From positions 16,997,911 to 17,061,910 of the forward strand of contig OX463786.1 of assembly GCA_949825025.1 (NCBI GenBank): a stretch of DNA of 64,000 nucleotides, in the 5' to 3' direction. The position numbers were made by a program, and so were the translations under genes. The stretch is from Siphlonurus alternatus. Lineage: Eukaryota; Arthropoda; Insecta; Ephemeroptera; Siphlonuridae. Under the pieces are notes generated by a model. That model had not been told where the DNA came from. It made no database searches and saw nothing but the letters and a program-made list of their open reading frames with translations. Shown in pieces: positions 1,395 to 64,000 of the stretch (the first letter of the stretch is position 1; every line of letters starts with the position of its first letter).

Positions 1395-1403
1395 ACAAAA
1401 ATC
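1395..1403. repeat. 9-bp target-site duplication, left copy
   Basis: The sequence ACAAAAATC lies directly against the left end of the long inverted-repeat element and is repeated exactly at 7579-7587 against its right end. A 9-bp duplication is typical of Mutator-like transposons. Confidence 0.88.
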
Positions 1404-1832
1404 GGACGTTGCTAGGGACAAGGGACCCTTGTCTCGAATCGGGACAAGGCAGTGTTCCGCGCATGCGCACTACGTAACTCTAACTGGCGGCATATTATGC
1501 AGTTTTATGCTGCCTTGTCCCGAAGAAAAAGACTCGGGACACGGCACTTTCAAGCCGCGTGAATATGCTACAGCAGCAACATGTTATCTGCCGCGCGTGA
1601 CGCCGTGAAGTTATCTGAATTAATATATATACACGGGAATTAAAATATAAAACATCAATAAACACTTTAAAGTATTATAATGATATTATAAATTAATATT
1701 ATTAATGAGATATATATGTTAATTTTATATAATATATTATATATAACAATTAATATATTTAATTAATTCATCATGCATGCTGGAATCGATCGTCCGGCAT
1801 ATGATACAATATAATTATACTATATATTTTTA

Positions 1833-1916
<84 letters not shown>

Positions 1917-2003
1917 TGGGCGTATATTATAATAATTAATTTATTCTCTAGCTGTTATATAGGCATAAAAATATACATAATATATAAACATAATACATTA
2001 TTC

Positions 2004-2036
<33 letters not shown>

Positions 2037-2330
2037 CATTTTAATTGTATTGAATATATATTACGTTAATTGGAATTTAACTGATCATGGCAATCATCAA
2101 GATATATATATTTCATGTATATATATATATATATACAGTATATATAAATATATATATATATATATATTAAATGCTTGAAGATTTTTTATAATTTTAATAT
2201 TGTATAATAATATAATATATAACCAATTCATTATTTTTATTTTAATTTATATATATTCATGCACATTAAAATATAATACATCGTGTATTAAATTAATTCA
2301 TACAGTTGCAATGACATATCATATTGTTAA
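1404..2330. repeat. Left terminal inverted repeat of the Mutator-like element
   Basis: It matches the reverse complement of 6745-7578 along its length. The GC-rich outer 220 bases hold two hairpins: CCTTGTC..GACAAGG near 1428, and one built from TGCCTTGTCCCGA with its near-complement near 1511-1546. The inner 700 bases are very AT-rich. The left copy is longer mainly because an (AT)n run near 1834-1910 has expanded. Confidence 0.88.
1834..1910. repeat. (AT)n microsatellite
   Basis: This is an almost pure AT dinucleotide run inside the left terminal repeat. The corresponding part of the right terminal repeat (near 7115-7130) is much shorter, so the run expanded after the two arms diverged. 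Confidence 0.95.
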
Positions 2331-5300
2331 CTGCCTTCATGTCTCGATTGCAGACGTGTACCCGGCAGTCTAAAATAAAGCTATTTCAACGTTAAATCGT
2401 ATATGTTATAGCACTCCCGTGTCCCGAGTGGAGACACGGCAGTTTTTTTATATATAGTGATTTTCAATTTAATAAATTCTATTTTGACTGCCTTGTCTCG
2501 ATTGCAGACACGGCAGTCTAAAATAAAGCTATTTCAACGTTAAATCCAGGGGCGATCGGTCCATAGATGCGAAGAATGCACTGCATGACCAACACAGATG
2601 GGAATGATAGGATTTTTTTTATTGTCTTTTGGTGCTCCAAGCATATAATTTTCATTAGTTTGAATTTATAATTTTGAATAAAATCCCGCTGATCTTATTC
2701 TCGCTTATCTTCGTATTTTTTCGCGATTTAAGACTGCGGCCCGAGTGATCGCAGTCATCACTACGTCACTAGAACCGGATCTAGCCAATAGAAATGGCGC
2801 AAAATGAGATGGTGGGTGGGGTGGGCTATGGTAAAAATAATAGCTGGTGAAGCGCTGTATTCAGAGCCTCCTCAACCAATCAAAATCAGATGACGAGAAA
2901 CTTTGATATTCATATTCGAAAATATTTAATATTTTAATAAATAAATAAGTATGTTACTCTTTTAAAATAAAAATATCAATTATGAAATTACCACATTTAT
3001 TCTAATTTTTAAATTACCTAGTCTGTATAGTCTTATAGTCTCTAGTCTGATTTTTTTGATAGAAAAAATATTCTTTGCAAGCTAGCGCCATATATATGCT
3101 GTGTTGCAAAAACGAACTACTTAGTAGTTAGTAAAGTTCGCAAGCTAGTACGGAAGCGCACACGTCTGGTTATGTTCAGTGATGCCTGCGATGTATTTTG
3201 CTTGTGTTATGCGTGTCTTATAGTGTATAATTTAGGGAGTTTCTTTAAACTATGTGAAATATACCTAATATAATAAGTTGACAAATTTATTGATAGTTTA
3301 CCAAAAAGAGCGTCGTCTATATCTATATATGAAATTTTATATTTAGTAAGTTTGTTTTACATTGACATATGGTAGAATAAAAATTATACTTATAATTTAG
3401 GAGCAACGGAAAATGAGAAATAAGACTTTATAATTTGCACCGTTGATTAAAAAGAATGAAAAATATATACCTTTAAAAACATTGAAATTAGTAAATTAAC
3501 TTTTTTTTTTAGAATACGGCAAAAATATTAAAGAAACAAAAACATCATCGATGGTAGCTTCGGTTATAAAAAAGAAATCAAAGTTTTCATTGATTTTTAA
3601 TAAAATAATACTGGATTGATAATTTTAGGAATCATATAAAACTTTGAATCATGTTTCTGGAATGTTAATTTTGAACTTCAAAATTTATCTGCCACGCCCC
3701 TTTTTTAGAAAAAATCGCGCCTGCGGCGGGCTGTACGGGGGGCACGGCCCCCGGACCCCCCTTTGGCATTTTATTCTCGTCGTTTTCAATGCGCATGACT
3801 ATGTAGTAAGGTCACCGATCGCCACTGGTTAAATCGTATATGTTATAGGACTCCCGAGTGGAGACACGGCAGTTTTTTTATATAGTGATTTTCAATTTAA
3901 TAAATTTTATTTTGACTGCCTTGTCTCGATTGCAGACACGGCAGTCTAAAATAAAGCTATTTCAACGTTAAATCGTATATGTTATAGCACTCCCGTGTCC
4001 CGAGTGGAGACACGGCAGTTTTTTATATAGTAATTTTCAATTTAATAAATTTTATTTTGACTGCCTTGTCTCGATTGCAGACACGGCAGTCTAAAATAAA
4101 GCTATTTCAACGTTAAAACGTATATGTTATAGGACTCCCGTGTCCCGAGTGGAGACACGGCAGTTTTTTTATATAGTGATTTTCAATTTAATAAATTCTA
4201 CTTTGACTGCCTTGTCTCGATTGCAGACACGGCAGTCTAAAATAAAGCTATTTCAACGTTAAATCGTATATGTTATAGCACTCCCGTGTCCCGAGTGGAG
4301 ACACGGCAGTTTCTTTATATAGTGATTTTCAATTTAATAAATTTTATTTTGACTGCCTTGTCTCGATTGCAGACACGGCAGTCTAAAATAAAGCTATTTC
4401 AACGTTAAATCGTATATGTTATAGGACTCCCGTATCCCGAGTGGAGAGACGGCAGTTTTTTTTATAAAAAAAACATATATGATTTAACGTTAAAAAAGCT
4501 TTATTTTAGACTGCCGTGTCTGCAATCGAGACAAGGCAGTCAAAATAGAATTTATTAAATTGAAAATCACTATATATAAAAAAAACTGCCGTGTCTCCAC
4601 TCGGAACACGGGAGTGCTATGACATATACGTTTTAACGTTGAAATAGCTTTATTTTAGACTGCCGTGTCTGCAATCGAGACAAGGCAGTCAAAATAGAAT
4701 TTATTAAATTGAAAATCACTATATAAAAAAACTGCCGTGTCTCCACTCGGGACACGGGAGTGCTATAACATATACGATTTAACGTTGAAATAGCTTTATT
4801 TCAGACTGCCGTGTCTGCAATCGAGACAAGGCAGTCAAAATAGAATTTATTAAATTGAAAATCACTATATATAAATAACTGCCGTGTCTCCACTCGGGAC
4901 ACGGGAGTGCTATAACATACACGATTTAACGTTAAAATAGCTTTATTTTCGACTGCCGTGTCTGCAATCGAGACAAGGCAGTCAAAATAGAATTTATTAA
5001 ATTGAAAATCACTATATAAAAAAACTGCCGTGTCTCCACTCGGGACACGGGAGTCCTATAACATATACGTTTTAACGTTAAAAAAGCTTTATTTTAGACT
5101 GCCGTGTCTGCAATCGAGACAAGGCAGTCAAAATAGAATTTATTAAATTGAAAATCACTATATAAAAAAACTGCCGTGTCTCCACTCGGGACACAGGAGT
5201 GCTATAACATATACGATTTAACGTTGAAATAGCTTTATTTTAGACTGCCGTGTCTGCAATCGAGACAAGGCAGTCAAAATAGAATTTATTAAATTGAAAA

Positions 5301-6744
5301 TCACTGTATAAAAAAACTGCCGTGTCTCCACTCGGGACACAGGAGTGCTATAACATATACGATTTAACGTTGAAATAGCTTTCTTTTAGACTGCCGTGTC
5401 TGCAATCGAGACAAGGCAGTCAGAATAGAATTTATTAAATTGAAATTCACTATATAAAAAAACTGCCGTGTCTCCACTCGGGACACGGGAGTCCTATAAC
5501 ATATACGATTTAACGTTGAAATAGCTTTATTTTAGACTGCCGTGTCTGCAATCGAGACAAGGCCGGCAGTCAAAATAGAATTTATGAAATTGAAAATCAC
5601 TATATAAAAAACTGCCGAGTCTCCACCCGGGACACGGGAGTGCTATAGCATATACGATTTAACGTTGAAATAGCTTTATTTTAGACTGCCGTGTCTGCAA
5701 TCGAGACAAGGCAGTCAAAATAAAATTTATTAAATTGAAAATCACTATATAAAAAAACTGCCGTGTCTCCACTCGGGACACGGGAGTCCTATAACGTATT
5801 AACGTTAAAAATGCTTTATTTTAGACTGCCGTGTCTGCAATCGAGACAAGGCAGTCAAAATAGAATTTATGAAATTGAAAATCACACACTATATAAAAAA
5901 ACTGCCGTGTCTCCACTCGGGACACGGGAGTGCTATAACATATACGATTTAACGTTAAAAAAGCTTTATTTTAGACTGCCGTGTCTGCAATCGAGACAAG
6001 GCAGTCAAAATAAAATTTATTAAATTGAAAATCACTATATAAAAAAACTGCCGTGTCTCCACTCGGGACACGGGAGTGCTATAACATATACGATTTAACG
6101 TTGAAATAGCTTTATTTTAGACTGCCGTGTCTGCAATCGAGACAAGGCAGTCAAAATAGAATTTATTAAATTGAAAATCACTATATAAAAAAACTGCCGT
6201 GTCTCCACTCGGGACACGGGAGTCCTATAACATATACGTTTTAACGTTAAAAAAGCTTTATTTTAGACTGCCGTGTCTGCAATCGAGACAAGGCAGTCAA
6301 AATAGAATTTATTAAATTGAAAATCACTATATAAAAAAACTGCCGTGTCTCCACTCGGGACACGGGAGTGCTATAACATATACGATTTAACGTTGAAATA
6401 GCTTTATTTTAGACTGCCGTGTCTGCAATCGAGACAAGGCAGTCAAAATAAAATTTATTAAATTGAAAATCACTATATAAAAAACTGCCGTGTCTCCACT
6501 CGGGACACGGGAGTGCTATAACATATACGATTTAACGTTGAAATAGCTTTATTTTAGACTGCCGTGTCTGCAATCGAGACAAGGCAGTCAAAGTAGAATT
6601 TATTAAATTGAAAATCACTATATAAAAAAACTGCCGTGTCTCCACTAGGGACACGGGAGTGCTATAACATTTACGATTTAACGTTGAAATATAGCTTTAT
6701 TTTAGACTGCCGGGTACACGTCTGCAATCGAGATATGAAGGCAG
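2331..6744. repeat. Opposed arrays of a 146-bp hairpin satellite
   Basis: About 6 units run in one orientation (2331 to about 4473, interrupted by the nested hAT-type element) and about 16 in the other (about 4473-6744). Spacing of the marker GCAATCGAG in the second array is mostly 144-150 bases. Each unit carries two stem-loops: GACTGCCTTGTC, a 9-base loop and GACACGGCAGTC; and CCGTGTC, a 9-base loop and GACACGG. The stems are joined by AT-rich linkers. The outermost unit on each side is degenerate. The switch point near 4473 is a truncated unit followed by an A-rich join. Confidence 0.92.
2547..3827. mobile_element. Nested hAT-type non-autonomous element
   Basis: The element starts CAGGGGCGATCGGT and ends with the near-complement ACCGATCGCCACTG, giving terminal repeats of about 14 bp. 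It is flanked on both sides by the 8-bp sequence GTTAAATC (2539-2546 and 3828-3835), which is a normal part of the satellite unit it interrupts. CAG-type ends with 8-bp duplications are characteristic of the hAT superfamily. The 1281-bp interior has no long reading frame, so it is non-autonomous. A GC-rich stretch with runs of G and C lies just inside the right end (3711-3765). Confidence 0.85.
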
Positions 6745-7578
6745 TTAACATGCAATATGATGTCAACTGTATATGAATTAATTTAATACACGATGTATTA
6801 TATTTTAATGTGCATGAATATAAATTAAAATAAAAATAATGAATTGGTTATATATATATATTATATTATACAATATTAAAATTATAAAAAATCTTCAAGC
6901 ATTTAATATATATATACTGTATATATATATTCATGAAATATATATCTTCATGATTGATCAGTTAAATTCCAATTAACGTAATATATATTTAATACAATTA
7001 TAATGTATATATATATATGTATATGAATGTATCATGTTTATATATATATTAATGTATATTTTTATGCCTATATAACAGAATAAATTGATTATTATATACG
7101 CCCATTAATTATATTTATATATATATCGTAAAAATATATAGTATAATTATAATATTGTATGCCGGACGATCGATTCCAGCATGCATGATGAATTAATTAA
7201 ATATATTAAAATTGTTATATATAATATATTATATAAAATTAAAAATTAACATATATATCTCATTAATAATATTAATTTATAATATCATTATAATACTTTA
7301 AAGTGTTTATTGAAGTTTTATATTATTTTAATTCCCGTGTATATTTTAATTCTGAATATTAATTCAGATAACTTCACGGCGTCACGCGCGGCAGATAACA
7401 TGTTGCTGCTGTAGCATATTCACGCGGCTTGAAAGTGCCGTGTCCCGAGTCTTTTTCTTCGGGACAAGGCAGCATAAAACTGCATAATATGCCGCCAGTT
7501 AGAGTTACGTAGTGCGCATGCGCGGAACACTGCCTTGTCCCGATTCGAGACAAGGGTCCCTTGTCTCTAGCAACGTCC
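6745..7578. repeat. Right terminal inverted repeat of the Mutator-like element
   Basis: Reverse complement of 1404-2330, ending at 7578. The same pair of hairpins lies in its outer GC-rich part (7435-7565). An 83-codon ORF on the minus strand here is a by-product of that GC-rich end and has no recognisable protein features. Confidence 0.88.
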
Positions 7579-7587
7579 ACAAAAATC
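7579..7587. repeat. 9-bp target-site duplication, right copy
   Basis: ACAAAAATC, identical to 1395-1403, directly abuts the right end of the Mutator-like element. Confidence 0.88.
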
Positions 7588-8034
7588 ACAAAAACTGCAT
7601 AATATGCAACGTTGCCATGTGTCATTGAAGGCCACAGGAAATTCCGGCCATGAAATTATCTTTGAGTCACATTTCCAGCACATTTCTTATCACTTTTAGA
7701 GCGAGTTTGAAAATTAAATTTAATTAATATAAAACTTAATGTACTAATTTTATATAAATTATGTAGTAATGTGGAATAAAATATGAGAAATTTGTAAAAT
7801 AAATTATTTTTTACAGGCTTGATTTTATTTCAAAACTACGCGGCATATTTTATAAAATAAAATTTGTAATTACATTGAAATAGGAAAATTATTTAATGAA
7901 AATAAACTTAAATTACATAAATAAAAGTAAAAGATTACATTTTAATCATACAGAACTAGTTTTTATTAATTTAGCTTGAGGGCAAAGATTATCTATAAAA
8001 AATCTGGCAACGTTGCAATTGTCGTCTGCTAATC
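7588..8034 (+). promoter_or_regulatory. SRP72 upstream region
   Basis: About 450 bases of mostly AT-rich DNA between the transposon and the SRP72 start codon; it must hold the SRP72 5' leader and probably its core promoter. No TATA box in a convincing position was identified. A 17-base stretch at 7591-7607 repeats one found inside the transposon's terminal repeat (7476-7492). Confidence 0.4.
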
Positions 8035-11000: not shown

Positions 11001-14000
11001 TATTTAGTAATATGCATAAGTTATAAAAATTAATTAAAAAATGAAATATATTTTTGAACGCGAGTGTATAATAAATAATTATATATTTTTTTTTATTGGT
11101 CACTTAATTTACAAATCAACCAAGGTTATACGGTGTTTGCTTGGCTTTGTTGTTGTTTACATTCATCAGTAGGTACTTAGGGGGAACTGGAATCACTTGA
11201 TTTATTGCTCCTAATTTAACATATTTTTAATTTTTTTTAACAATAATTTATACGTAAGAAATGAATATACATAACTTGAACATATATATTTTTTTTATTT
11301 TACCTAGTTTCTTTATCATTATTCTTTGTTGTGCCGTTTCCCCCTCGTATTCAAAAGTCCGCGGGGAAAGCAATGGTCGGTGATTGGCTGATTTTTTTTC
11401 AGAATGTTAGGGTCAATATCAGTGCATAAGTGTCGTAAAATGGTCATTATTGACGTGAAATTTGGAGTCGATTTACATTTTATTTAATGATTTATTGTAT
11501 TTTTCACAGATATCATTGGCAAATATTGCATTTTTTTCCATTTACTTGACATTTCAATCTATCAAATAAAATAATTGTCAAAGGTGTCACAATCGTCATA
11601 TCGCAGAAAATAAATAGTTTTTGGTATGCTACTACCATGTTAAATAGGTGCTTTTTGCCTACATTCACGTGACGTCATGTTTTTGTGACGTATGGTGAAA
11701 GACCCGTATACACAATATATAACATACAAGCATGAAATGTTTATAATAATTAATATACAACATAATATAACAATATATTTCACCGTTATTATGAACTGCT
11801 TAAACAATCGCGATGCATTTTATTTTTGGAATTTTCTTATAATAGTTCAAGAATTTGTTGTTTAGGCAACTCGCCATACTTTGAAGCTGAACAAGTTGCC
11901 TATCCTTGTGGCGTTAATATTTCTCTTCATGAATTTTATAATGAGTAAAATTATTTGATTATTTTTATATAATATATTAGCAATAATAATTTTTTATATA
12001 TTAATTATATCAAATTCACATTGACGAGCGTAAATAAATCGCAATTTTTTTTTACTTTACGCTCTTCTATTTTTTTTTTTTTTAAATTTATTTTTTATTT
12101 TGCATTTCAGAGATGCCGGACCGTATTATTTACACTTTATACAATGCCTTCTTATAGAGCAGCCAGTGATTTATAAATTTTATAATACATATTATTTGAG
12201 TGGCAGGAAATTTTAATTCGCATCTTTGGGGGAAGGGGGGGGGGGAGTCACACGTTACAGCATGCAACATCACAGCTTCTTCATGGCCATGAAAGCTTCA
12301 AAGGAGACTTTACAGGGCTCCCTGCCACCGTGGTTCACAAGCTCACAGCATGGCTTGCAGCTAGTGACGCCACAATGTCTGCATGGTGGGCCATGTGTTT
12401 TAACACATGGTTTGCAAAGATAGGGGAAAACGGCAATGTTGTCAATTTTTGGTTCCTCTCTGCCTCATTCACTGTTGTCGTGTTGTTGTCAGTGACAGCT
12501 AGTGTGCACTTGACAACCGCGCTTGTTTACGTGCAGTAGCCATCATCCACAAAAAAAATGTCGTATCTCTATAAGCATGCTTTTGCCATTACATTTTGCT
12601 GTAACTTTGAGAAAATATTTAAGATTTTTGCGTTCACGTCGGTTTTTAAAATTTTGTAGAAGGTCATTTTTATATTACTTACAGGAATTCAATTTGATAA
12701 TTAAATAAAGTAAATAATTAATTAATTTTTGTTTAGGCAACTCGCCTTACTTCGAATCTGAAAAAGTTGCCTAATTTCGTGGTGCTAATATTTCTCTTTG
12801 TATTCGGGTTTGTGATTTATAATAATGTTACTATATTATATTATTATAATATTTTTATAATTTATAATGAATAAAATTATTTGATTATTAGCAATAATTA
12901 TTTTTTATATTAATTATATCAAATTCACATTATAGAGCGTGAATCGCAATTTTTTTACTTCACGCTCCTCTATTATTGTTTCTTTTTTTATTTTGCACTT
13001 TTCAGAGATGTATGGTGATCATGCATAAAAATTAGATAACATTCGACTTTAAAAAGACGCTTGTCGCCTCAGAGCGTGCCCGTGCCTCGGGACAGGCGCC
13101 TGGCCGCTATACGGGTCTTTCACCATACGTCACAAAAACATGACGTCACGTGAATGTAGGCAAAAAGCACCTATTTAACATGGTAGTAGCATACCAAAAA
13201 GTATTTATTTTCTGCGATATGACAATTGTGGTACCTTTGACAATTATTTTATTTGATAGATTGAAATGTCAAGTAAATGGAAAAAAATACAATATTTGCC
13301 AATGATATCTGTGGAAAATACAATAAATCATTAATTAAAATGTAAATCGGCTCCAAATTTCACGTCAATAATGACCATTTTACGACACTTATGCACTGAT
13401 ATTGACCCTAAGATTCTTAAAAAAAATCAGCCAATCACCGACCATTGCTTTCCCCGCGGACTTTTGAATGCGAGGGGGAAACGGCACAACAAAAAATTAT
13501 CATAAGAAAACCAGGTAAAATAAAAAAAATGTATATGTTCAAGTTATGTATATTAATTTCTTACGTATATATTATTGTTAAAAAAAATTAAAAATACGTT
13601 AAATTAGGAGGAATAAATCAAGTGATTCCAGTTCCCTCTCAGTACCTACTGCTGAATGTAAACAACAACAAAGCCAGGCAAACGCTATATATAATTATAT
13701 CCTTCTTGGGACGCGCGTAGCCGCCCGCTTGGGCCGTGCGAGCGCAGTACGTATGAGCGACCAGGCTCCAAGCGGCCGCGGCGCGAGCACGTCCACATGG
13801 ACGCAGAATTTGGAGCTGACCAACAAACTGTCCAACAAGCTGTTGCAGCAGCCGATATAATTATGGGAGACTATGGGATAGAAACCATATAAAAAATTGG
13901 AGTTCAAAGTCTCAAAAAAATTCTAGTTTTATGCAATGAAAGATGCATATGTGAATGCTTTGGAAGGGAATTTTTTATATTTTTCTAATTATTTATGTAT

Positions 14001-47969: not shown

Positions 47970-50631
47970 CCATTTTATGCTCAATATTGAATTAAAGAGG
48001 GCGAGATCTTTTTAGTTAGGATTTTATTGTCCCTTCAAAACTCAGGCTTGCATAGCTTAGCAATCCATTCCAGCATTTGCCTGGTTGTGACTGAGGTAAC
48101 TATGACAGTTGATAGAGCATACCATACAGGATAGATGTTAAAACGTCCCAGATTTGTCATCTTCAAATTCTCATTTGAGAAAGAATTTATTTTCTTGTTG
48201 TTGCTATTTTACTTTCAAAAGAAAGGCGCCTGAAGTCTTCGTTCCTGAAAATTTCTTATTGAAAACATTATAAGATTTTTTTAATTTTTTTCTTTCAATA
48301 ATTTATTTCTTGCCTAGTCTAAAAAAAGTGTGTAGGACAGCATAATATAGATATTTTACTAACAGCTGTGTTCCCATCTTCCTTCTCTGTACTATCTTGA
48401 AGGCTTGCTGCCAGAATTTTTGCTAACTGACGCCTCATGTTACAGCTTGACAGTGCGACGTCGCTGATCCAGGCTGCCAAGAACTTGATGAACGCCGTGG
48501 TGCTGACCGTCAAGGCCTCATACGTGGCCTCCACAAAGTACCCTCGCCAGGGTACAGTCTCGGTGAGTACCAGGACAAGATGAACACTTTTGTGTTAGCA
48601 GATGTTATTATCTATTGGTAAACCTTTCTTCTAAATCCCTTTATGTCCCACAGGAGTGTAACCAGTTTTATTTGAAGGAAAGGCTTTAGATTATTATTAA
48701 ACAAAGGCAAAATCTGTAGCTATTTTTAGAGTATAATATATGAAGTCCCTGCGGTTAAATGGGTTTATAAGCCGTTACAAGTAAAGGTTAGTTCTTGTCT
48801 TTGGAAGTGAAAATGACTTTGAAAATAAACCCATTTAATCCCTTGGCTCTCAAATGCTGACAATTTTATTCTCTTCAGAAGATATTGTCCTCTGTTTTTA
48901 ATGCTCAAAAAAATTGAACTACACCATTACCAGTATTTAAAATTTATTAAATGCTATGTAATTAAATGAAGGAAGCTAAAAATTCCTGCATTTCTGAGAG
49001 ACTTTGAAAGACAAATTTGGGGGACATTCACAAAGCACTTTAACCCCCACTTTAGCCCCGATTTTTAACCTTGGTGCTAAACATGGTACTAAACCAGGGG
49101 CTAACCATGTTAAGCTCATAGCTTAGCACCATGTTTAGCACCAGGGTTAAAAATCGGGGCTAAATTGGGGGTTAAAGTGCTTTGTGAATGTCCCCCAAGG
49201 AGTTTTGTAGAATAGTGAGTTTTCAGTAGAACAAGAAGGATAGAGGTATTACAGTACATGAGCAATATTCTGCACATGTAAATTATTAATGTAAAGTATA
49301 TTCAGCCTGATGCCACGCCCACTTTCTCCCTACATCTCCCATAAGGATTGTATTGGGATATAGTGTAAAGTGAGTGTAGTGTGACATTAGACAATTTGTA
49401 CTGCAAATAGATGGTATGCATGTAACTAGAACATAATTACTGTACAGTAATGGGAAGTTTTACAAAAGCTTTCGTTCTTTTTTTCCGAACTTGTAGTAAC
49501 ATTTTTAGACTATCTCTTCCTGGTTATAGAAGTAAAATCAGCAGTTTGTCTCATTGCATGTTCATATTAGTTTATTTAAGTCAGTAGATTTGGCTTTTTT
49601 AGAGGCTATAATTTAGTACAATAAAAAAATAAATTTTACCAGATACTTGCGTGATTGTCAGTTTCAAGATATTGATAGAATTTTTCTTTTCTGATTGGTT
49701 AAACCTCTTGTTGTTCTGTTTGGTGATTGGCTGACGAGATGTTGTTCTTGTCCCGTCAGGAAGTGTCGGAAATCGGGTTTGAGAGACAAGAAGGATCGTG
49801 TTTCTATTTTCCTGTAACGGCAGCTCACTCCATTTTATACGGAGTCAATCTGGTATTTCACTGTCGAATTTGCTATTTTGCTGTGATGTCTTAACTAACA
49901 AAATTAATTCAATAAACATTATATTGGACAATTTTGTATGTGTGTTTATAGAAAGCTGAATTTATACTAACCTGTTTTTAGTTGTCTTCTTTTTGCTGCA
50001 TATTATTTACTTTTTTAGTTGTTATTGTCGTTTGATTTCTGAATTTAACAAGTTAATCTCTTTATATTTTCCAAAGCTTGATCTTATAAAGTTGACTTTA
50101 TTTTATATTGAGCTACTAAACAGATATAATTTAATAGAAAATAACACAGTTATGACTACTGAATTGATTTGCGTATTATTATTGTTCACTTTGTAAAAAT
50201 TCTTATAATTGTTTTGTTGTTTTTAACTAACTATCATATTGATATATTCATTATCAAACCAATGTAATATTAAGGAAATAAGTACAACATTTCTCAATTA
50301 CTTAAAAAAAAATATATATATACAAGACAAAACTCAAGGTTCTCTATAAAAAAAAAAAAAAAAAAAATGCAAGTTGGTTATTTCAGGGGTATGATATTAC
50401 ATTTTCAAGGTTACAATATTTTATGTTCTTCTTGTTCTAGTAATGACAATACTATTGTTGTTTCAGTCTCCTATTGTTGTATGGAAGATGAAGGCCCCTG
50501 AAAAGAAGCCCCTCGTCCGCCCTGAGAAACCTGAGGAAGTCAGGGCTAAGGTACGCAAGGGTTCCCAGAAGAAGGTACAGAATCCCATCAAGGCTCTCAG
50601 TGAGTTCCAGAGCCCAGCTGAGTCGGTCTGA
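34536..50631 (+). CDS. alpha-Cat: Alpha-catenin
   Basis: Seventeen coding exons, all in phase, give 910 residues: 34536-34640, 35351-35540, 36069-36235, 36776-36985, 37443-37619, 37991-38194, 42150-42265, 42767-42884, 43319-43411, 43899-44055, 44578-44778, 45228-45379, 45883-45952, 46443-46692, 47608-47848, 48446-48562 and 50467-50631. Alpha-catenin links the cadherin/beta-catenin complex to F-actin at adherens junctions. The start matches the family (KWDPKNLEIRTMSVEKTLEP). The N-terminal vinculin-homology domain (about residues 50-260) holds the beta-catenin-binding and dimer region (ADDPCSSLKRGNMVRAAR). The middle carries LEERLESIISGAALMADSS and the modulation bundles, and the C terminus the actin-binding domain (KWDDTGNDIIVLAKHMCMIM, LLAYLQRIALYCHQLNI). 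The ending FQSPAESV is of arthropod type. Intron 6 is the longest (4 kb). Confidence 0.98.
38467..38599. mobile_element. 133-bp palindromic MITE, copy 1
   Basis: Begins CGTCGCCTCAGAATGCAAGT and ends with its reverse complement; the arms are about 60 bp with a small loop. Flanked by AAAT on both sides (38463-66 and 38600-03). It lies in alpha-catenin intron 6, with an identical-length copy 1.6 kb downstream. Confidence 0.85.
40081..40213. mobile_element. 133-bp palindromic MITE, copy 2
   Basis: Same family and same length as 38467-38599, with the loop in the opposite orientation, flanked by ATTT on both sides (40077-80 and 40214-17). The 4-bp duplications differ, so these are two independent insertions. 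Confidence 0.85.
44189..44250. mobile_element. Half-copy of the AAGGCCTTGCTGGTTATTCC repeat family
   Basis: The sequence GATCAGTAAGGCCTTGCTGG followed by TTATTCCTAT matches one arm of the foldback element at 59069-59211 in a PGAM intron. It lies in alpha-catenin intron 10. Confidence 0.6.
44360..44405. repeat. (AT)n microsatellite with adjacent poly(T)
   Basis: About 23 AT units; a 27-base poly(T) run lies just upstream at 44288-44314. Confidence 0.9.
49017..49198. mobile_element. 182-bp palindromic MITE with GGGGGACATTCACAAAGC ends
   Basis: The arms TTGGGGGACATTCACAAAG.. and their reverse complement (..TGTCCCCCAA) pair over about 75 bases each, with a short loop near 49105. It lies in alpha-catenin intron 16. 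No target duplication could be fixed. Confidence 0.8.
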
Positions 50632-53600
50632 ATTCATAAAGATCATTTTCATCATTAATATGTATAAATTTGATCCTTATCATTTAATGTCATCTCAGAA
50701 TATCAGTGTTGTAAGTACTACACATTTTTCTTACAATTATAAACCTTATGTCTTATGTACATAAAGTCCATATTTGCATTAAAACAGTAGGACAATTGCA
50801 TTCTGAGAGGACTGTACACCGTCTAACAAATTTAAGATTCCTCTAAGGTATGAGTTTTTAAGTTTTGGGAAACTGGAGACAGCTGATTAAAAAACAAATA
50901 AAAATTAAAAGGGATCTTCAGATTTGTTAGATCATTTCATAATTCTGTGCAATAAGTTTATTATTTGTTTATTTTCGACTGCAGATTTTCATTTGTTCTA
51001 ATCAAATTTGTTTTGCCCTATTTTATAATATATTTATTATTTAAAAAAAAATGTCGGGCAGCTAGCTATTTTTGACAGCTATTTTTGACTATGCTTAATA
51101 TTTTTAGCATTTTTAAAGCAAATTTTACGTTTTAATATAGAAAATATTGTGGCAAGAGTTAGTAATTATTTCAATCCATCCCACGCCATATAATTCTGTA
51201 TTTTATATATATAGCTTAATTTCAAAACATAAATATTTTATTGTAGTTTTTAGTATGTAATGTAGATCAAACTAATAATAATAATAAATTATAATTTTTA
51301 TCAAATATATTTAATTTTTGGTTTAATAGATGTTTAAAAATTTTCATGTTATGTATAAGGTGTTCAAAATATAGATGTATGGGTAATGTAGAAAAATACA
51401 TAATAATTTTGCTTTTTAGTTGCAGTAATGTATAATGCAGTAACTAGTAAAAATAAAAATTGTATGCATGTAGCATTCCATAGTATTTTTTTATTTTATT
51501 TTAAAGTAGTGAATTTTGTTTCAGTATTTAAAATAAATAATATTTTTTAAAGAAGTTGTATAATTATATTTTCAAATAGATTTAATTATTATTAAATATT
51601 AAAATATAATATTAAACTATTTAAGTCACAATTTTAAGACCAAAAAAATAAGAATGGGATTTTTTTTAAGGTAGAGATAATTCGAATCAGCTGGCCCAAT
51701 GCTAAAAAAAATCCCATTCATAAAAATTATGAAAAAAATTTAAAATGTTTTCCTCTACATCCCCTATCAGTAGGTAAAATATCAGGTATACAAAAACGAG
51801 CTAGTTTTCGAGTTATTAATTTTTAAAGTTGACTAATTTAACATGGAAGTTCCATTTCTCCATGTTAAATTAATCAACTTTAAAAATTAATAACTCGAAA
51901 ACTAGCTCGTTTTTGTATACCTGATATTTTACCTACTGATAGGGGATGTAGAGGAGAACATTTTAATTTTTTTTCATAATTTTTATGAATGAGATTTTTT
52001 TAGCATTGGGCCAGCTGATCCGTATTATCTCTACCTTAAGCAAATATAGGCCTAAATTATTAATTTAGTATTTATATTATAATTGGTCAGCACAAGTACG
52101 TAGTGAATGAATAAACTGCATGATTTTCAATTGCATAAATGAGAAGAGTAGAAAAAATACCTCTGAATGAATATTTGTCATGACTCGTTTAATTTTCCCC
52201 ATGGCATACCGAGGAAAATTTAAAAATAAAAATTTATAAAACATTTTTCCTTATTTTCTTGTCATTTTTGCAATAAAAAATACATGTTGATTATATTGAT
52301 TATATATATCAATGATGTATGTGTCTATACATAATATTACCCTCATAATGGTGTATTGTGTTGTAATGTTGATGAAAGTGTCAACAATATTTTAAATGTT
52401 ACTTTTTTACTAAAATTATTGTATCCTAACCTTTTAGTTGAATTTTTAAACTTTAAATAATTTTTACACCAATTTAAGAAAAAAAAAATAATAGTTCTGG
52501 TATTTTTTCTGTTGAATTGGAATTGGGAAAAAATTAGTTGATTAAATAATTTATTCCAAATATTCCAATTTATAAATGTCTAAATTATAAATGGTTTCCA
52601 AATTTTATTAATAGTAGAATTCTAGAAATCTGCAATTAGATAAATGGATAATTTTCATTGTATACTAAAAATACTTTTGCTATACAGCCTTGAACCCAGA
52701 AATAAAGAAGAAGCCTTCCTCATAAGAGATCATATTAAATTCTCAAGGTTTTGAACAAATATAGGCTTTACATCTAGCATGCAGCCTTTATTTGTAAAAC
52801 TTGTGACACTTTTTGTTTTGAGGAGTCGTCTGTATCTTTCGGAAAGTTTCTGGTCAGTAAAAACTGTTCAGCTCTCAAAATTAAATAATTGAAATATCAG
52901 ATGAGCTTTAATTATGCTCTCCGTTCATTTGATTCATGAAATAATCATACTGTTTGTGCTCTTGAAAATTTCCTTGACAAATAGTTTTTATATTGTTGCT
53001 GTAGGTGAAGGATATTTTTTAAGGCAAAGAATGTACTTTATGAACAGACCTAATAACGTTCCACGCGTATTTTTATCCTCTAAACCTAAATATCTGTTTC
53101 CATTTTCAGTGTCTAATTTGTCTAAACAACCTAAATTAAATGTCAATCAAATTAAATAGAAAATACAATCCAAACATATCACACCCTAGAATTTCTCTAT
53201 ATATGGAATCCATCCTCACCCTATTAACGTTAAAAAAACAAACAAACAAAAAATCACTTTTTTTTTTCGGTGTAATTTTTTTTTTTTTTTTTTTTTTTTC
53301 AATGTTCTTATAAAATTATTTAAGGTCTTCATATATATGTGTTTTCAGACTTGTTACTAACAATACTAACTAATGGATATTAGAGTGATTAAATAATATA
53401 CTTTTTTTTATGGTAGAGCTTTAATGATGTATAAATAAATTAATATATTGATTCTAAAGATTCTTGTTTAATGCAGTAAAAAAAAAAAAAAAAAAACAAA
53501 AAAAATTGCTTCTACAATAATTCAGAAAATATTTTATGGGCAATATTTTGGGGGGGTGTAATCAATGGAAATGAAATAAGCTAGAAATGTTGGTTGATGT

Positions 53601-56346: not shown

Positions 56347-56479
56347 TTATTATAGGCCTGTTCGTAAACCCTGCTCGGTGTACACTTTCTGCACCCAATC
56401 GACCTTATGTACATGGGTTATAAGGTCGATTGGGTGTAGAAAGTGTACACCGAGAAGGGTTTACGAACAGGCCTTATAA
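56347..56479. mobile_element. Palindromic MITE just upstream of the PGAM gene
   Basis: Arms of about 60 bp (AGGCCTGTTCGTAAACCCT, CGGTGTACACTTTCT, CACCCAATCGACCTTAT and complements) surround a tiny loop. It ends about 135 bases before the phosphoglycerate mutase ATG, so it lies in or next to the promoter or 5' leader. Confidence 0.8.
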
Positions 56480-60072: not shown

Positions 60073-60896
60073 TGTTGTGCAATTTAGAGCTTGTTTTTTT
60101 GGTACAGCAACGAACATAAATTTTTCCCTCTTCAATAGTGATAGATATAAAGCTGATAAAGTATGATTCCCCTATATTAGAAAAAAAAATGTAATTGTAA
60201 TGTAAAATTGCATGTTTTTATGTATTTGAAAACACTTAATTATTTACCGATTTTAATTTATTTTATCATTTTCCATAAAAAAAAAAATACAGCCTTATTA
60301 TTTATTATGTTGAAAAAAATCATATTTGTTATTAATTTATTTGTGGTACATACTCAATAAAAATGATAATGATTAATTTAAACTTCCATTGTTTTAATTA
60401 AAAAATGAAAAATCCTAATCAACAAAAAAATAATAATATAATCCAATTTAACTGTAGAGTATCAAAAAAAGCTGAAGGAAGCAAAAACCTACTAAATAAA
60501 AGCTAGTTAGCTGACATAGATAGTTAGGTATGTGTGCAAGAAAGTTGCAGAATGGCTATTATGGGGACATTTTTTAAGCTAAAGTAGTAGGAGCACAGAA
60601 ATCTGTTGGAGGTCTCTTCAGGTTTCATGCCCAGCTGAATGGCTAAAAGAATGAGAAGAAATATTAGGAGATCATAAAATATAGGAGCTTCGCTCTCATT
60701 CAGGGTAGTTTTCTTTCAGTATAGGCCATGGAGGAAATATTATCCTTGGTATAGGCCAAGGTTTTTGAACATTTCTACTAGGAGAACATAACAATCTAGG
60801 AGGTGAGACATGAAAATCCTTGAGGAGTCATTGAAAAATTTAAAATAAAGGATGAGATTAACATGTATTACTAGGAGGTCTCTTGTAAGATAAATG

Positions 60897-61811
60897 CCCT
60901 GCTGAAAATTCTTGAACAAGATCTTGTACAAGTCTTGAACAAGTTTTGACCAAGATCTTGAGCAATAATCTTGCCAAGATCTTGGCAAGATCTTGCGCAA
61001 GATCTTGGCAAGATCTTGGCAAGATCTTGACAAGATCTTGTGCAAGATCTTGGCAAGATATTTTCTTGTGGAAGATCTTGGTAAGATTATTGCTCAAGAT
61101 CTTGGTCAAAACTCAAAACTTGTCCAAGACTTGCACAAGATCTTGGTCAAAACTTCTTCAAGACTTGCGCAAATTTTGCCCAAGATCTTGAGCCCAAATA
61201 ATCTTATCAAGATCTTGCCAAGATCTTAGCAAGATCTTGCGCAAGATCTTGGCAAGATCTTGGTAAGATCTTGGCAAGATCTTGTGCAAGATCTTGGCAA
61301 GATATTTTCTTGTGCAAGATCCTGGTAACATTATTGGGGCTCAAGATCTTTCACAAGACTTGCAACTGATTTGTACTTGAAAAAATTTGTGTAAGTAAAT
61401 GCAAGATCTTGACAAGATTTTCAAGATTTGGTTGCAAGATGTGGTACCTAGTAGAAACCTCACAGTCGTCACATACATTTATCCATCATCTGAAAAAAAA
61501 TAAAGAGTTTAATTAGTTTTTTTCTGGTATGCATAGTACATAATAGTTTTCGTTATAAGTTCGGCAGTTGTCTTGCTGGTTTCCTTTCTGTGGATATTCA
61601 TCATCCTGCTTCATCTCTCCGCTCAGCGCACAATGAATCCTCTCACTCTATCCATGCACGTACGCAACGGCTAGGCCTGCGGAACCTGGGGATCAAAGAC
61701 ATATTTAAAGGATATTCGATAAAATTAGACATGCAAGATCTTGCTCAAGACAATTGCAAAAGGTATTGTGCAAATCTTACCCAAGATCTTGCTCAAGAAT
61801 TTTGAGCAGGG
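60897..61811. mobile_element. AAGATCTT foldback element
   Basis: Starts CCCTGCTGAAAATTCTTGA and ends with the near-complement CAAGAATTTTGAGCAGGG, with ATG on both sides (60894-96 and 61812-14). Between about 60915 and 61350 it holds some twenty copies of the palindrome AAGATCTT spaced mostly 11-12 bases apart, as two similar blocks. A non-repetitive part (61450-61730) shows no gene. ORFs here on both strands (repeats of DLAKIL-like peptides) merely translate the repeat. Confidence 0.7.
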
Positions 61812-61814
61812 ATG

Positions 61815-62430
61815 CATATTATATACAGTATATATTTAAATGCATGATTAACAATTTTTGTACTGTAAAACAAATTTAAACACTTCACTACTGTACAACG
61901 ATGTTAATTTAATACATATACAACCACAATTTATTGCATTAACTTAAATGCATGCATATTATATAATATGCATACACAGTATGCATACATTGCAGTACTA
62001 GTATACATACCTTTATCAACTTTATACAAACCAAATACTGCTATGCCATTGATTTATGCACACAACAGCCAAGTTTTGTCGAACTGGTATGGTTGTCGAA
62101 TCCTTGATCAGAATCCATCACATCCCGGCCATGTTTGCAAGCCGCTCAGCAAGCAGGAAGCAGGTCAAGCCATCGAAATGTCATTAAAAAAACAGACAAT
62201 TTTGTGTGAGCTTAACAATATATTAAACAAAAACAACTATACATAAGTTAAAGCTTACCTGGAACTGTGTAATAACTACTAATTAGCACAAAAACACACA
62301 AAATCTTAATGTTTCTTCACCAGCTTCAATTTTCACCAACCGTCCATCTTAACTGTTATAAAAAAAACGGTCATGCGCATTGCATTTGTTTCACATCGTC
62401 CACTTGCGCAGTCCACTTGCGCAATGAAAA
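61815..62430. other. No gene recognised
   Basis: AT-rich DNA rich in ATGCAT. A 92-codon ORF at 61968-62246 shows no protein-family features or codon bias. The segment separates the AAGATCTT element from the 142-bp satellite and may be part of one larger element. Confidence 0.4.
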
Positions 62431-63545
62431 CGCGCGCAAGATTTCTTCTTGCTCAAGTCTATTACTTGCAATGCTCAAGATAAAAAATCTTGGGGAAGAA
62501 AAAACTTTTTGAACAAGATTGTCATTTTAAACATGATGGTAACTTGTCCAAGAAATAATATTGAGATAAATATGAAAACATGTTGAAGATTTTTTCTTGC
62601 TCAAGATTAAATCTTGCGTAAGAAAAGATTTCTTGAACAAGATTGTCATTTTAATCAAGATGATAACTTCTCCAAGAAATAATACTTAGAAAAATATGAA
62701 AAATTGTGTAAGATTTTTTCTTGCTCAAGTCTATTACTTGCTCAAGATGTAAATCTTGAGTACGAAATGACTTCTTGAACAAGATTGTCATTTTAAACAA
62801 GACGGTAACTTGCCCAAGAAATAATCTTGAGATAAATATGAAAAAGTTTGTAAGATTTCTTTCTTGCTCAAGTCTATTACTTGCCCAAGATATGAAACTT
62901 GACTATGAAATGACTTCTTGAACAAGATTGTCGTTTTAAACAAGACGGTAACTTCTACAAGAAATAATCTTGAGAAAAATATGAAAACTTGTCTAAGATT
63001 TTTACTTGCTCAAGTCTATTACTTGCTCAAGATATAAATATTGCGTAAGAAATGACTTCTTGAACAAGATTGTCATTTTAAGCAAGATGATAACTTGTCC
63101 AAGAAATAATCTTGAGAAAAATATGAAAAATTGTTTAAGATTTTTTCTTGCTCAAGTCTATTACTTGCTCAAGATATAAATCTTGAGTACGAAATGACTT
63201 CTTGAACAAGATTGTCATTTTAAACAAAACGGTAACTTCTCCAAGAAATAATCTTGAGAAAAATATGATAACTTGTTTAAGATTTTTTTCTTGAGCAAGT
63301 TAATTACTTGCCAAGATGTTGTTCTTGCGTAAAAAATGACTTCTTGAACAAGATTACCATCGTGCGCAAGACGGCAACTCTAGCTCAAGAAATAATCTTG
63401 AGATAAATTCGAAAACACGAGCAAGATTTTCTATCTTGCAAAGAATATTTTCTTGCGCAAGTGAGTTTCTTGTTAAGATTGTGATCTTGCGTAAGAAATG
63501 ACGTCTTGAATAAGATTATTATCTTGCTCAAGATCTTGTTGAACC
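62430..63545. repeat. 142-bp tandem satellite
   Basis: About eight units. The marker TTGCTCAAGTCTATTACTTG recurs with its GCTCAAG at 62723, 62866, 63008 and 63150 (spacing 143, 142, 142), with diverged units on either side. Each unit contains CTTGAACAAGATTGTCATTT, ACGGTAACTT, CCAAGAAATAATCTTGAG and ATATGAAAA. The CTTG..CAAG pairs make each unit self-complementary in several places, like the AAGATCTT element to its left. Confidence 0.85.
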
Positions 63546-63689
63546 AAAAATATCTTATTTTGTAATTTTTTTCACATTTTTGGCTAAAATATTATTTTTA
63601 GAAGGATAATATCCAATAATAATATTACAGACCAGCACTCAACCCTGTTGCGCCTCTTTCTTGGTCTTCTCGTGTTTACTTGGCAAGAT

Positions 63690-63734
63690 CTTGTCAAGGT
63701 CTTGCAAAGATATGCTCAAGATTTTTGAGCAGGG
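63690..63734. mobile_element. Second terminus of the CCCTGCTCAAAA element family
   Basis: The sequence ATGCTCAAGATTTTTGAGCAGGG matches the right end of the element at 60897-61811. No matching left end is seen between 61812 and 63690, so either the satellite belongs to a larger element starting at 60897 or this is a truncated copy. Confidence 0.6.
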
Positions 63735-64000
63735 TGAGAATCAGATTTTTATTGTTATTTTTGTTTTATCATTTTCAGATTGAGCTAAAACAAAACTGGT
63801 AATTAATTATGATACCAATAAACTCTTCTGCCTGCAGCACTCGTACATCAAATCTATCTCTACTGCGTTCTTCTTGTGATTTATTTTTAATTACCTAGCT
63901 GTCACTCTCTATTTATGTTCCCTCTAGCTTTGTCTGCCAATCAAGCAATTATTAGATTACTTCTGGAAATTGCCAAAAATTAATTATACGTTTTTCTCCA

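Follow-up and report, generated by a model that had tools for sequence, protein, structure and literature searches.

Long palindromes of kilobase size with almost no spacer are expected to be unstable, and asymmetric centres help. This raises a question about a locus of the mayfly Siphlonurus alternatus. Within the 64,000-nucleotide stretch that we analysed (the window; contig OX463786.1, positions 16,997,911 to 17,061,910, numbered here from its first letter), a first-pass annotation had marked positions 1404 to 7578 as a Mutator-like element (MULE) whose interior is a giant palindrome of satellite units. What is this element, how did its interior become inverted, and is the palindrome made at each site or carried from site to site? 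In our best explanation, to which we assign a probability of roughly 0.75, it is a non-autonomous foldback transposon that most likely depends on a MULE transposase acting in trans. Putative binding sites would have been amplified in it, a rare fold-back event would have followed, and the resulting palindrome would have been inherited since. That the family exists, spread recently and has many members is clear; foldback elements in general are well known, and what sets this one apart is the palindrome as heritable cargo.

Structure of the element in the window

The element (1404..7578, no strand assigned) measures 6175 bp and was defined by exact ends, a 9-bp target site duplication, terminal inverted repeats (TIRs) and pairs of the same ends elsewhere in the genome. 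The ends begin GGACGTTGCTAG and are flanked on both sides by ACAAAAATC, at 1395..1403 and at 7579..7587 (both on the + strand). Outside the satellite array, the left TIR occupies 1404..2331 (+ strand, 928 bp) and the right TIR 6744..7578 (− strand, 835 bp), so that the ends, duplication and TIRs of 0.8–0.9 kb proposed in the first-pass annotation were all recovered. Between copies, the flanks diverge immediately outside the same first base, which places the ends at a true boundary. The two TIRs differ at 9 positions in ∼827 aligned columns and by many indels in TA tracts (first ten alignment blocks), and a subterminal TIR hairpin folds better than shuffled sequences (z −6.1, 0/200). In line with the earlier proposal, the element has no transposase-sized frame: none of the window's 25 frames of at least 110 aa falls within 1404–7578. 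Rfam and tRNA scans of the window gave 0 matches. A resemblance of the right flank to the element near 7594, seen by eye, was discarded, because the best alignment is low-complexity AT and at least one of 300 shuffles scored as well or better.

The interior consists of 22 segments of a ∼146-bp unit arranged head-to-head. Six segments form the left array (2332..4466, + strand), where one is cut by an insertion and the innermost is partial; sixteen form the right array (4473..6743, − strand), where the innermost is again partial. The mirror point is a perfect 20-bp palindrome, GTTTTTTTTATAAAAAAAAC (4455..4474, no strand), within about 10 bp of the centre first placed near 4473. Each unit contains two hairpins, both of which fold better than shuffles (z −4.5, 0/200; z −3.6, 1/200), giving roughly 42 stem-loops. 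The earlier figures of about 22 head-to-head units and more than 40 stem-loops thus hold. Long double-stranded RNA, also suggested, would form if the element were transcribed: the predicted folding energy of an 822-nt RNA is −621 kcal/mol, whereas 20 shuffles average −174.

The interior is not purely satellite. The left arm holds a nested hAT-like insertion of 1281 bp (2547..3827, no strand assigned) that the first-pass annotation missed, with TIRs CAG(G/T)GGCGATCGGT, and an 8-bp duplication GTTAAATC (2539-2546 and 3828-3835); it contains no frame that reaches 110 aa. When the insertion was removed in silico, the joined flanks restored the unit, save for a 7-bp gap elsewhere in that unit.

Copies across the genome

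We searched the genome (455.7 Mb in 102 contigs) with a 21-bp end pattern, allowing up to 3 mismatches and using the reversed pattern as a control. There were 122 matches (63 on the + and 59 on the − strand), compared with 2 for the control. The 100 of these 122 that were listed resolve into 46 facing pairs, one of them the window's, plus 8 unpaired ends. The genome thus has at least 46 such pairs; those listed span 4128–17273 bp (median 6922) and sum to 364 kb. Target duplications were scored for 26 of them: all 9 bp agree in 16 and 8/9 in 3 more, whereas mismatched flank pairings, used as a control, average 2.4 of 9 with a maximum of 6. That the element is a mobile unit is thereby supported. 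Since 20 of the 40 end matches scored (again with the window's) are identical over 157 bp, its spread must have been recent.

We read 24 copies, 23 of them whole (the window's, L031–L050, L051, and L028 with L054 and L029) and one, L053, at 79% (7.9/10.0 kb). All 24 carry head-to-head arrays in both orientations. The lengths of the two arms vary independently: across L031–L050 there are 6–26 units in the + arm and 3–29 in the − arm, L051 has 12 and 5, and the part of L053 that was read has 41 + and 14 − units (55). Seven further large copies were sampled in 20 slices, of which 15 contained units, four did not, and one was all N (L064, 1201 N); counting L052, both orientations were seen in six of the seven. 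The family therefore has the long TIRs, with tandem repeats varying in number between ends and between copies, by which foldback elements are recognized, and its copies lie at unlinked sites with target duplications, as those of a mobile foldback element should.

Another facing end pair, ∼18 kb apart, lies at C2:30013396-30031358. L042 and L050 have intact ends and no target duplication, and are perhaps products of recombination between copies. Viral contigs, in a scan that may leave out the window's own genome, contained neither the unit hairpin nor the element end.

Most copies read share one junction at the mirror point

Junctions were counted in the 24 copies read, in either orientation. 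The junction of the window, type A, has its core in 17 of the 24: 14 copies are exact over a 28-nt pattern, L043 differs by one base, and L040 and L051 retain the core only. A second junction, type B, is present in four copies, exact over 29 nt. Three copies have neither: L033, L036 (∼586 bp between the arrays) and L042 (∼3.9 kb between the arrays). With types A and B taken together, the arrays abut directly in 21 of the 24 copies, and L033 likewise lacks a long spacer. Because the same junction is found at different loci with different duplications, the palindrome predates these transpositions. It appears to be inherited through transposition and to be itself what moves.

These junctions also bear on whether the inverted arrays could be an assembly artefact made from mis-joined or folded-back reads. 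One large copy (L064) has a run of N in its middle, so some arrays are perhaps hard to assemble. In the window, however, the flanks are not mirrored, the arms are unequal (6 versus 16 segments) and the hAT-like insertion is in the left arm only; moreover, 17 of 24 copies have this junction although their flanks differ. An artefact is extremely unlikely.

The two junctions differ in form. Type B matches the predicted product of hairpin self-priming through the stem, with one base differing just outside it (GACTCCC for GACTGCC). Type A has the perfect 20-bp core, after which ∼37 bp of the unit are missing on one side; they were probably deleted between short AAC repeats from what would formerly have been a perfect palindrome.

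Exchange between arms and copies

We noted that the outer TIRs fall into three types, alpha, beta and gamma. Twenty-two copies were typed (the window's and L031–L051). Alpha/beta pairing was seen in nine, one of which has an arm broken by an insertion and another an alpha base at position 13 of the beta arm; six are gamma/gamma (one L049 arm is insertion-broken), four are gamma/alpha hybrids, and in three (the window's, L032 and L051) an alpha-like stretch follows a beta base at position 13. In the window, the left TIR is of type alpha, and the right TIR has the beta base (A) at position 13 with an alpha-like stretch behind it. The interior of the right TIR shows 8 and 3 mismatches to two beta arms, versus 12 and 19 to two alpha arms, which is modest evidence that this TIR is a mosaic. 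Such mosaics imply that sequence has passed between arms or between copies. Of the outer 150 positions, 145 are the same in alpha and gamma; 6 gap columns fall close to where this stretch ends, and many indels and mismatches follow. A conserved outer TIR is as would be expected if the enzyme needs the end.

The units show a related pattern. In 18 of 21 copies, the inner units of the two arms are closer to each other than to the units of other copies, although the effect is overstated, since subfamilies were pooled and the distance between copies is inflated as a result. The outermost units diverge most (edge–internal 7.5%, internal–internal 5.2%), a pattern resembling that of tandem arrays homogenized from within.

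The likeness of the two arms might suggest that the palindrome forms anew in each copy, the host turning single arrays into palindromes once they have inserted. There are at least two unrelated junctions, A and B, and 3/24 copies with neither, as such a process would give. Against this, the arm comparison is inflated by the mixed subfamilies, and one junction is common to 17 of the 24 copies, 14 of them exact over 28 nt. An array in a single orientation, the expected starting point, was seen in 0 of the 24 copies read; one large copy showed + units only in the slices sampled. We regard formation in place as very unlikely, and inheritance of a pre-existing palindrome as the better account.

A motif common to the ends and the units

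The element carries a short motif, GACAMGGCAG, in both its ends and its units. Allowing one mismatch, the window has 85 matches, compared with 2.1 expected, and 83 of these are within the element: 77 in the arrays and 6 in the terminal 150 bp, counting both ends. At the left end, GACAAGGCAG lies at 1443..1452 (+ strand), with others at 1510-1519 (−) and 1538-1547 (+, 1 mismatch); at the right end, it lies at 7530..7539 (− strand), with others at 7463-7472 (+) and 7435-7444 (−, 1 mismatch). At the same stringency no match was found at 1548-2413 or 6660-7434. With the motif in the ends and the array and missing in between, the ends and the array share a site that the intervening sequence lacks.

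The likeness extends beyond the motif. When the first 200 bp of the element were compared with the unit, a 27-nt match outscored all 500 shuffles (score 34, 0/500 as high). The matching end stretch (1427..1453, + strand) resembles the unit hairpin at 22–23 of 27 nt and is mirrored at the right end. Elsewhere, unit-like matches did not rise above the shuffles: out of 500, 489 scored as high for the middle of the TIR, 319 for the hAT-like insertion, and 330 and 69 for the flanks. The earlier suggestion that subterminal binding sites were amplified thus gains a strong link between ends and units, the sites themselves being putative.

We searched the genome for the exact 31-nt unit hairpin and found 1182 matches (612 + and 570 −; reversed control, 0). 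The 100 of these that were listed (C1 to 13.86 Mb) all lie inside the first four elements. The 22 whole copies of up to 9.1 kb hold 423 hairpins, a mean of 19.2, and 1182/19.2 corresponds to ∼61 elements, near the number implied by 122 ends; longer copies should hold more, which leaves no excess. The hairpin total is therefore about what the elements alone would hold, and free arrays, which may exist, are not needed to explain it. The element had been proposed as a vehicle that spreads satellite DNA; among the listed matches, the satellite lay only inside the element's own copies, and its genome-wide total is in line with how many elements there are.

So many sites per copy could have a function of their own. 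As a transposase sink, an array would titrate the enzyme at dozens of sites, dampening transposition, and long arrays would be kept because they limit damage. The 77 motif matches in the window arrays alone and the 1182 exact hairpins genome-wide are in keeping with this idea, but no transposase with these ends was found, binding and titration are putative, and unequal exchange could just as well have left the arrays behind as neutral by-products. We consider a sink distinctly unlikely, though less so than formation of the palindrome in place.

Which transposase moves the element?

The probable assignment to the MULEs is based on the 9-bp duplication and the form of the TIRs, as it is for Tetris (PMC4079207). 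MULEs are described with target duplications of 8–11 bp (PMC6446971), among which the 9 bp found here fall, and arthropod MULEs with TIRs of 13–1193 bp (PMC13359780). The genome contains 28 MULE-domain matches, several in frames of 554–569 aa, and none of them was seen by eye within 100 kb of the 100 of 122 end matches that were listed. The 569-aa MULE (L075, L076) occurs in several places; two that were read are 99% identical over 3.1 kb and have a large TA palindrome inside. A match of the window's AT-rich inner TIR to the stretch around the first 569-aa MULE (81% over 273 columns, E 1e-53) lies in TA repeats and was not taken as kinship.

Frames were listed for L039, L042, L045, L052, L053 and L054, together with the long frame of L059, rather than for every copy singly. 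All were short, repeat-derived or part of a nested retroelement; the long frame of L059 matches Pfam Retrotrans_gag at 3.8e-4, below the family cut-off. A candidate coding copy, C2:33529341-33539461 (10.1 kb), which has no unit within 1.5 kb of its ends, was rejected when 14 + and ∼14 − units were found far inside. Of the first-pass designation as Mutator-like, the 9-bp duplication and the long TIRs stand, and no transposase was found with these ends.

The P superfamily typically makes target duplications of 7–8 bp, and the 9 bp seen here fall outside that range. Even so, the family might belong to another superfamily (Merlin, P/Galileo-like or unclassified): no transposase has been linked to the element, and Galileo is described as a foldback form that arose in the P superfamily (PMC3688188; PMC3169594). 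The 9-bp duplication and long TIRs nevertheless suit MULEs (8–11 bp, PMC6446971), and MULE genes with long frames are present in the genome (28 matches), although Merlin and P transposases were not among the enzymes searched for. We judge another superfamily to be unlikely but well short of far-fetched, and retain the MULE assignment.

A model for the origin of the palindrome

In the scheme that we favour, a Mutator-type transposase would act in trans, by cut-and-paste. GACAMGGCAG, common to the ends and the units and taking hairpin form in the latter, would be its putative site, and duplication of subterminal sites would have given rise to the 146-bp units. Array length would then shift through unequal exchange or slippage. 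The head-to-head form would stem from a rare fold-back event at a unit: type B would be the leftover of self-priming at a unit hairpin, and type A a once perfect palindrome from which ∼37 bp next to the centre, on one side, were lost afterwards. Thereafter, the whole palindrome would be passed on by transposition, its arms still altering in length and swapping sequence.

Several observations weigh against this scheme. Folding of the outermost 55 nt does not stand out from that of shuffled sequences (z −1.4; 25/200 shuffles as good). The inner TIR is free of the motif, and the array thus cannot simply continue the terminal sequence inwards. Our account of how type A arose is a reading of the sequence only. 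One large copy, C1:44918607-44930166, had + units only in its slices. Two gamma/alpha hybrids, L041 and L047, and also L036 are exceptions to the likeness of the arms, theirs being less similar than the average between copies, and the other two hybrids have just one and two inner units in one arm. The first-pass annotation counted on duplications at other copies; these are present in most pairs tested, but in 7 of the 26 no more than 7 of the 9 positions agree (L032 and L038 at 7, L033 and L044 at 6, L047 at 5), and L042 (2/9) and L050 (1/9) have none. Neither the 24 copies read nor the slices of the 7 large copies yielded a transposase. Finally, for 3 of the 28 MULE loci, belonging to two families, both end and motif were absent from the stretches fetched (8.6 kb and 4.2 kb around two 569-aa copies, 5.5 kb around the 554-aa MULE), which may stop short of the outer ends of these loci.

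A more far-reaching version of the model may also be considered. A single fold-back at a unit hairpin, with an asymmetric and hence tolerated centre, would have been copied to dozens of sites, the arms would form one exchange pool and so stay similar, the hairpins would recruit or titrate transposase, and transcripts crossing the centre, as long and nearly perfect hairpins, could feed small-RNA silencing of the element's repeats. We put this forward tentatively and think it unlikely as a whole, somewhat less so than a sink for transposase. Whatever its fate, the family offers dozens of recent mobile palindromes with comparable centres, a natural experiment despite the instability expected of them. 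It makes testable the questions of how long palindromes originate, which centres are tolerable, and how sequence is exchanged between inverted arms.

Other features of the window

Arrays of CAAGATCTTG-type palindromes occupy 60890-61811 and 62400-63740. The first of these has CCCTGCT-type inverted ends and a possible 3-bp duplication, ATG, seen by eye, and perhaps represents another hairpin-rich transposon family. At 11127-13691 there are inverted arms of 584 nt, 95% complementary and 1.4 kb apart, forming another long-TIR element for which no clear target duplication was found. Small, near-perfect hairpins resembling miniature inverted-repeat transposable elements lie at 51705-52001, 56354-56474 and 49017-49198, with 11 nt between the arms in the first two and none in the third. 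SRP72, assembled from exons in the window, is 72% identical to its counterpart in a mayfly, Cloeon dipterum; for the other 119 listed of 1158 proteins, identity does not exceed 67%, in keeping with a mayfly host.

Comparison with known foldback elements

Foldback elements with 9-bp duplications are known from Drosophila, where FB and FB-NOF have inverted tandem repeats made of short units; in Galileo, the target duplication is 7 bp. Judged by title and abstract opening, the papers listed in our literature searches include no element whose entire interior is a head-to-head array with a junction common to its copies. Galileo, a Drosophila element of foldback form, is described as having tandem repeats with further transposase binding sites and serves as a model for the role proposed here, but it belongs to the P superfamily (PMC3688188). 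Rehavkus, likened here by its description, shares the 9-bp duplication and an internal minisatellite, with TIRs of 26–400 bp; it differs in that the minisatellite lies before the 3′ TIR only and the transposase has a PHD finger (PMC6446971). The Mutator/Foldback element Tm1 of root-knot nematodes is reported to have ∼14-bp repeats, 1–9 of them consecutive per TIR, and one copy encoding a Phantom-type MULE transposase (PMC3169594), whereas here the repeats are 146 bp long, 55 were counted in part of L053, and no coding copy was found.

The element resembles Tetris, a foldback element of Drosophila virilis. Its description gives an outer TIR domain of up to 866 bp, inner tandem repeats of ∼220 bp and 8–10-bp duplications, without a coding frame or known autonomous partner, and with repeat numbers that differ between alleles (PMC4079207). 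In both families, the outer domain and the repeats share sequence, 37 bp in Tetris (PMC4079207) and a 27-nt match here. In Tetris the arms also include an inner TIR domain and are separated by a middle domain (PMC4079207), whereas the arrays abut here in 21 of 24 copies. Tetris repeats also form satellite arrays of up to 66 copies (PMC4079207); here, no free arrays were present in what was sampled. As far as sampled, then, this satellite-like repeat lives only within its transposon, which would be a stage before satellite arrays of the Tetris type.

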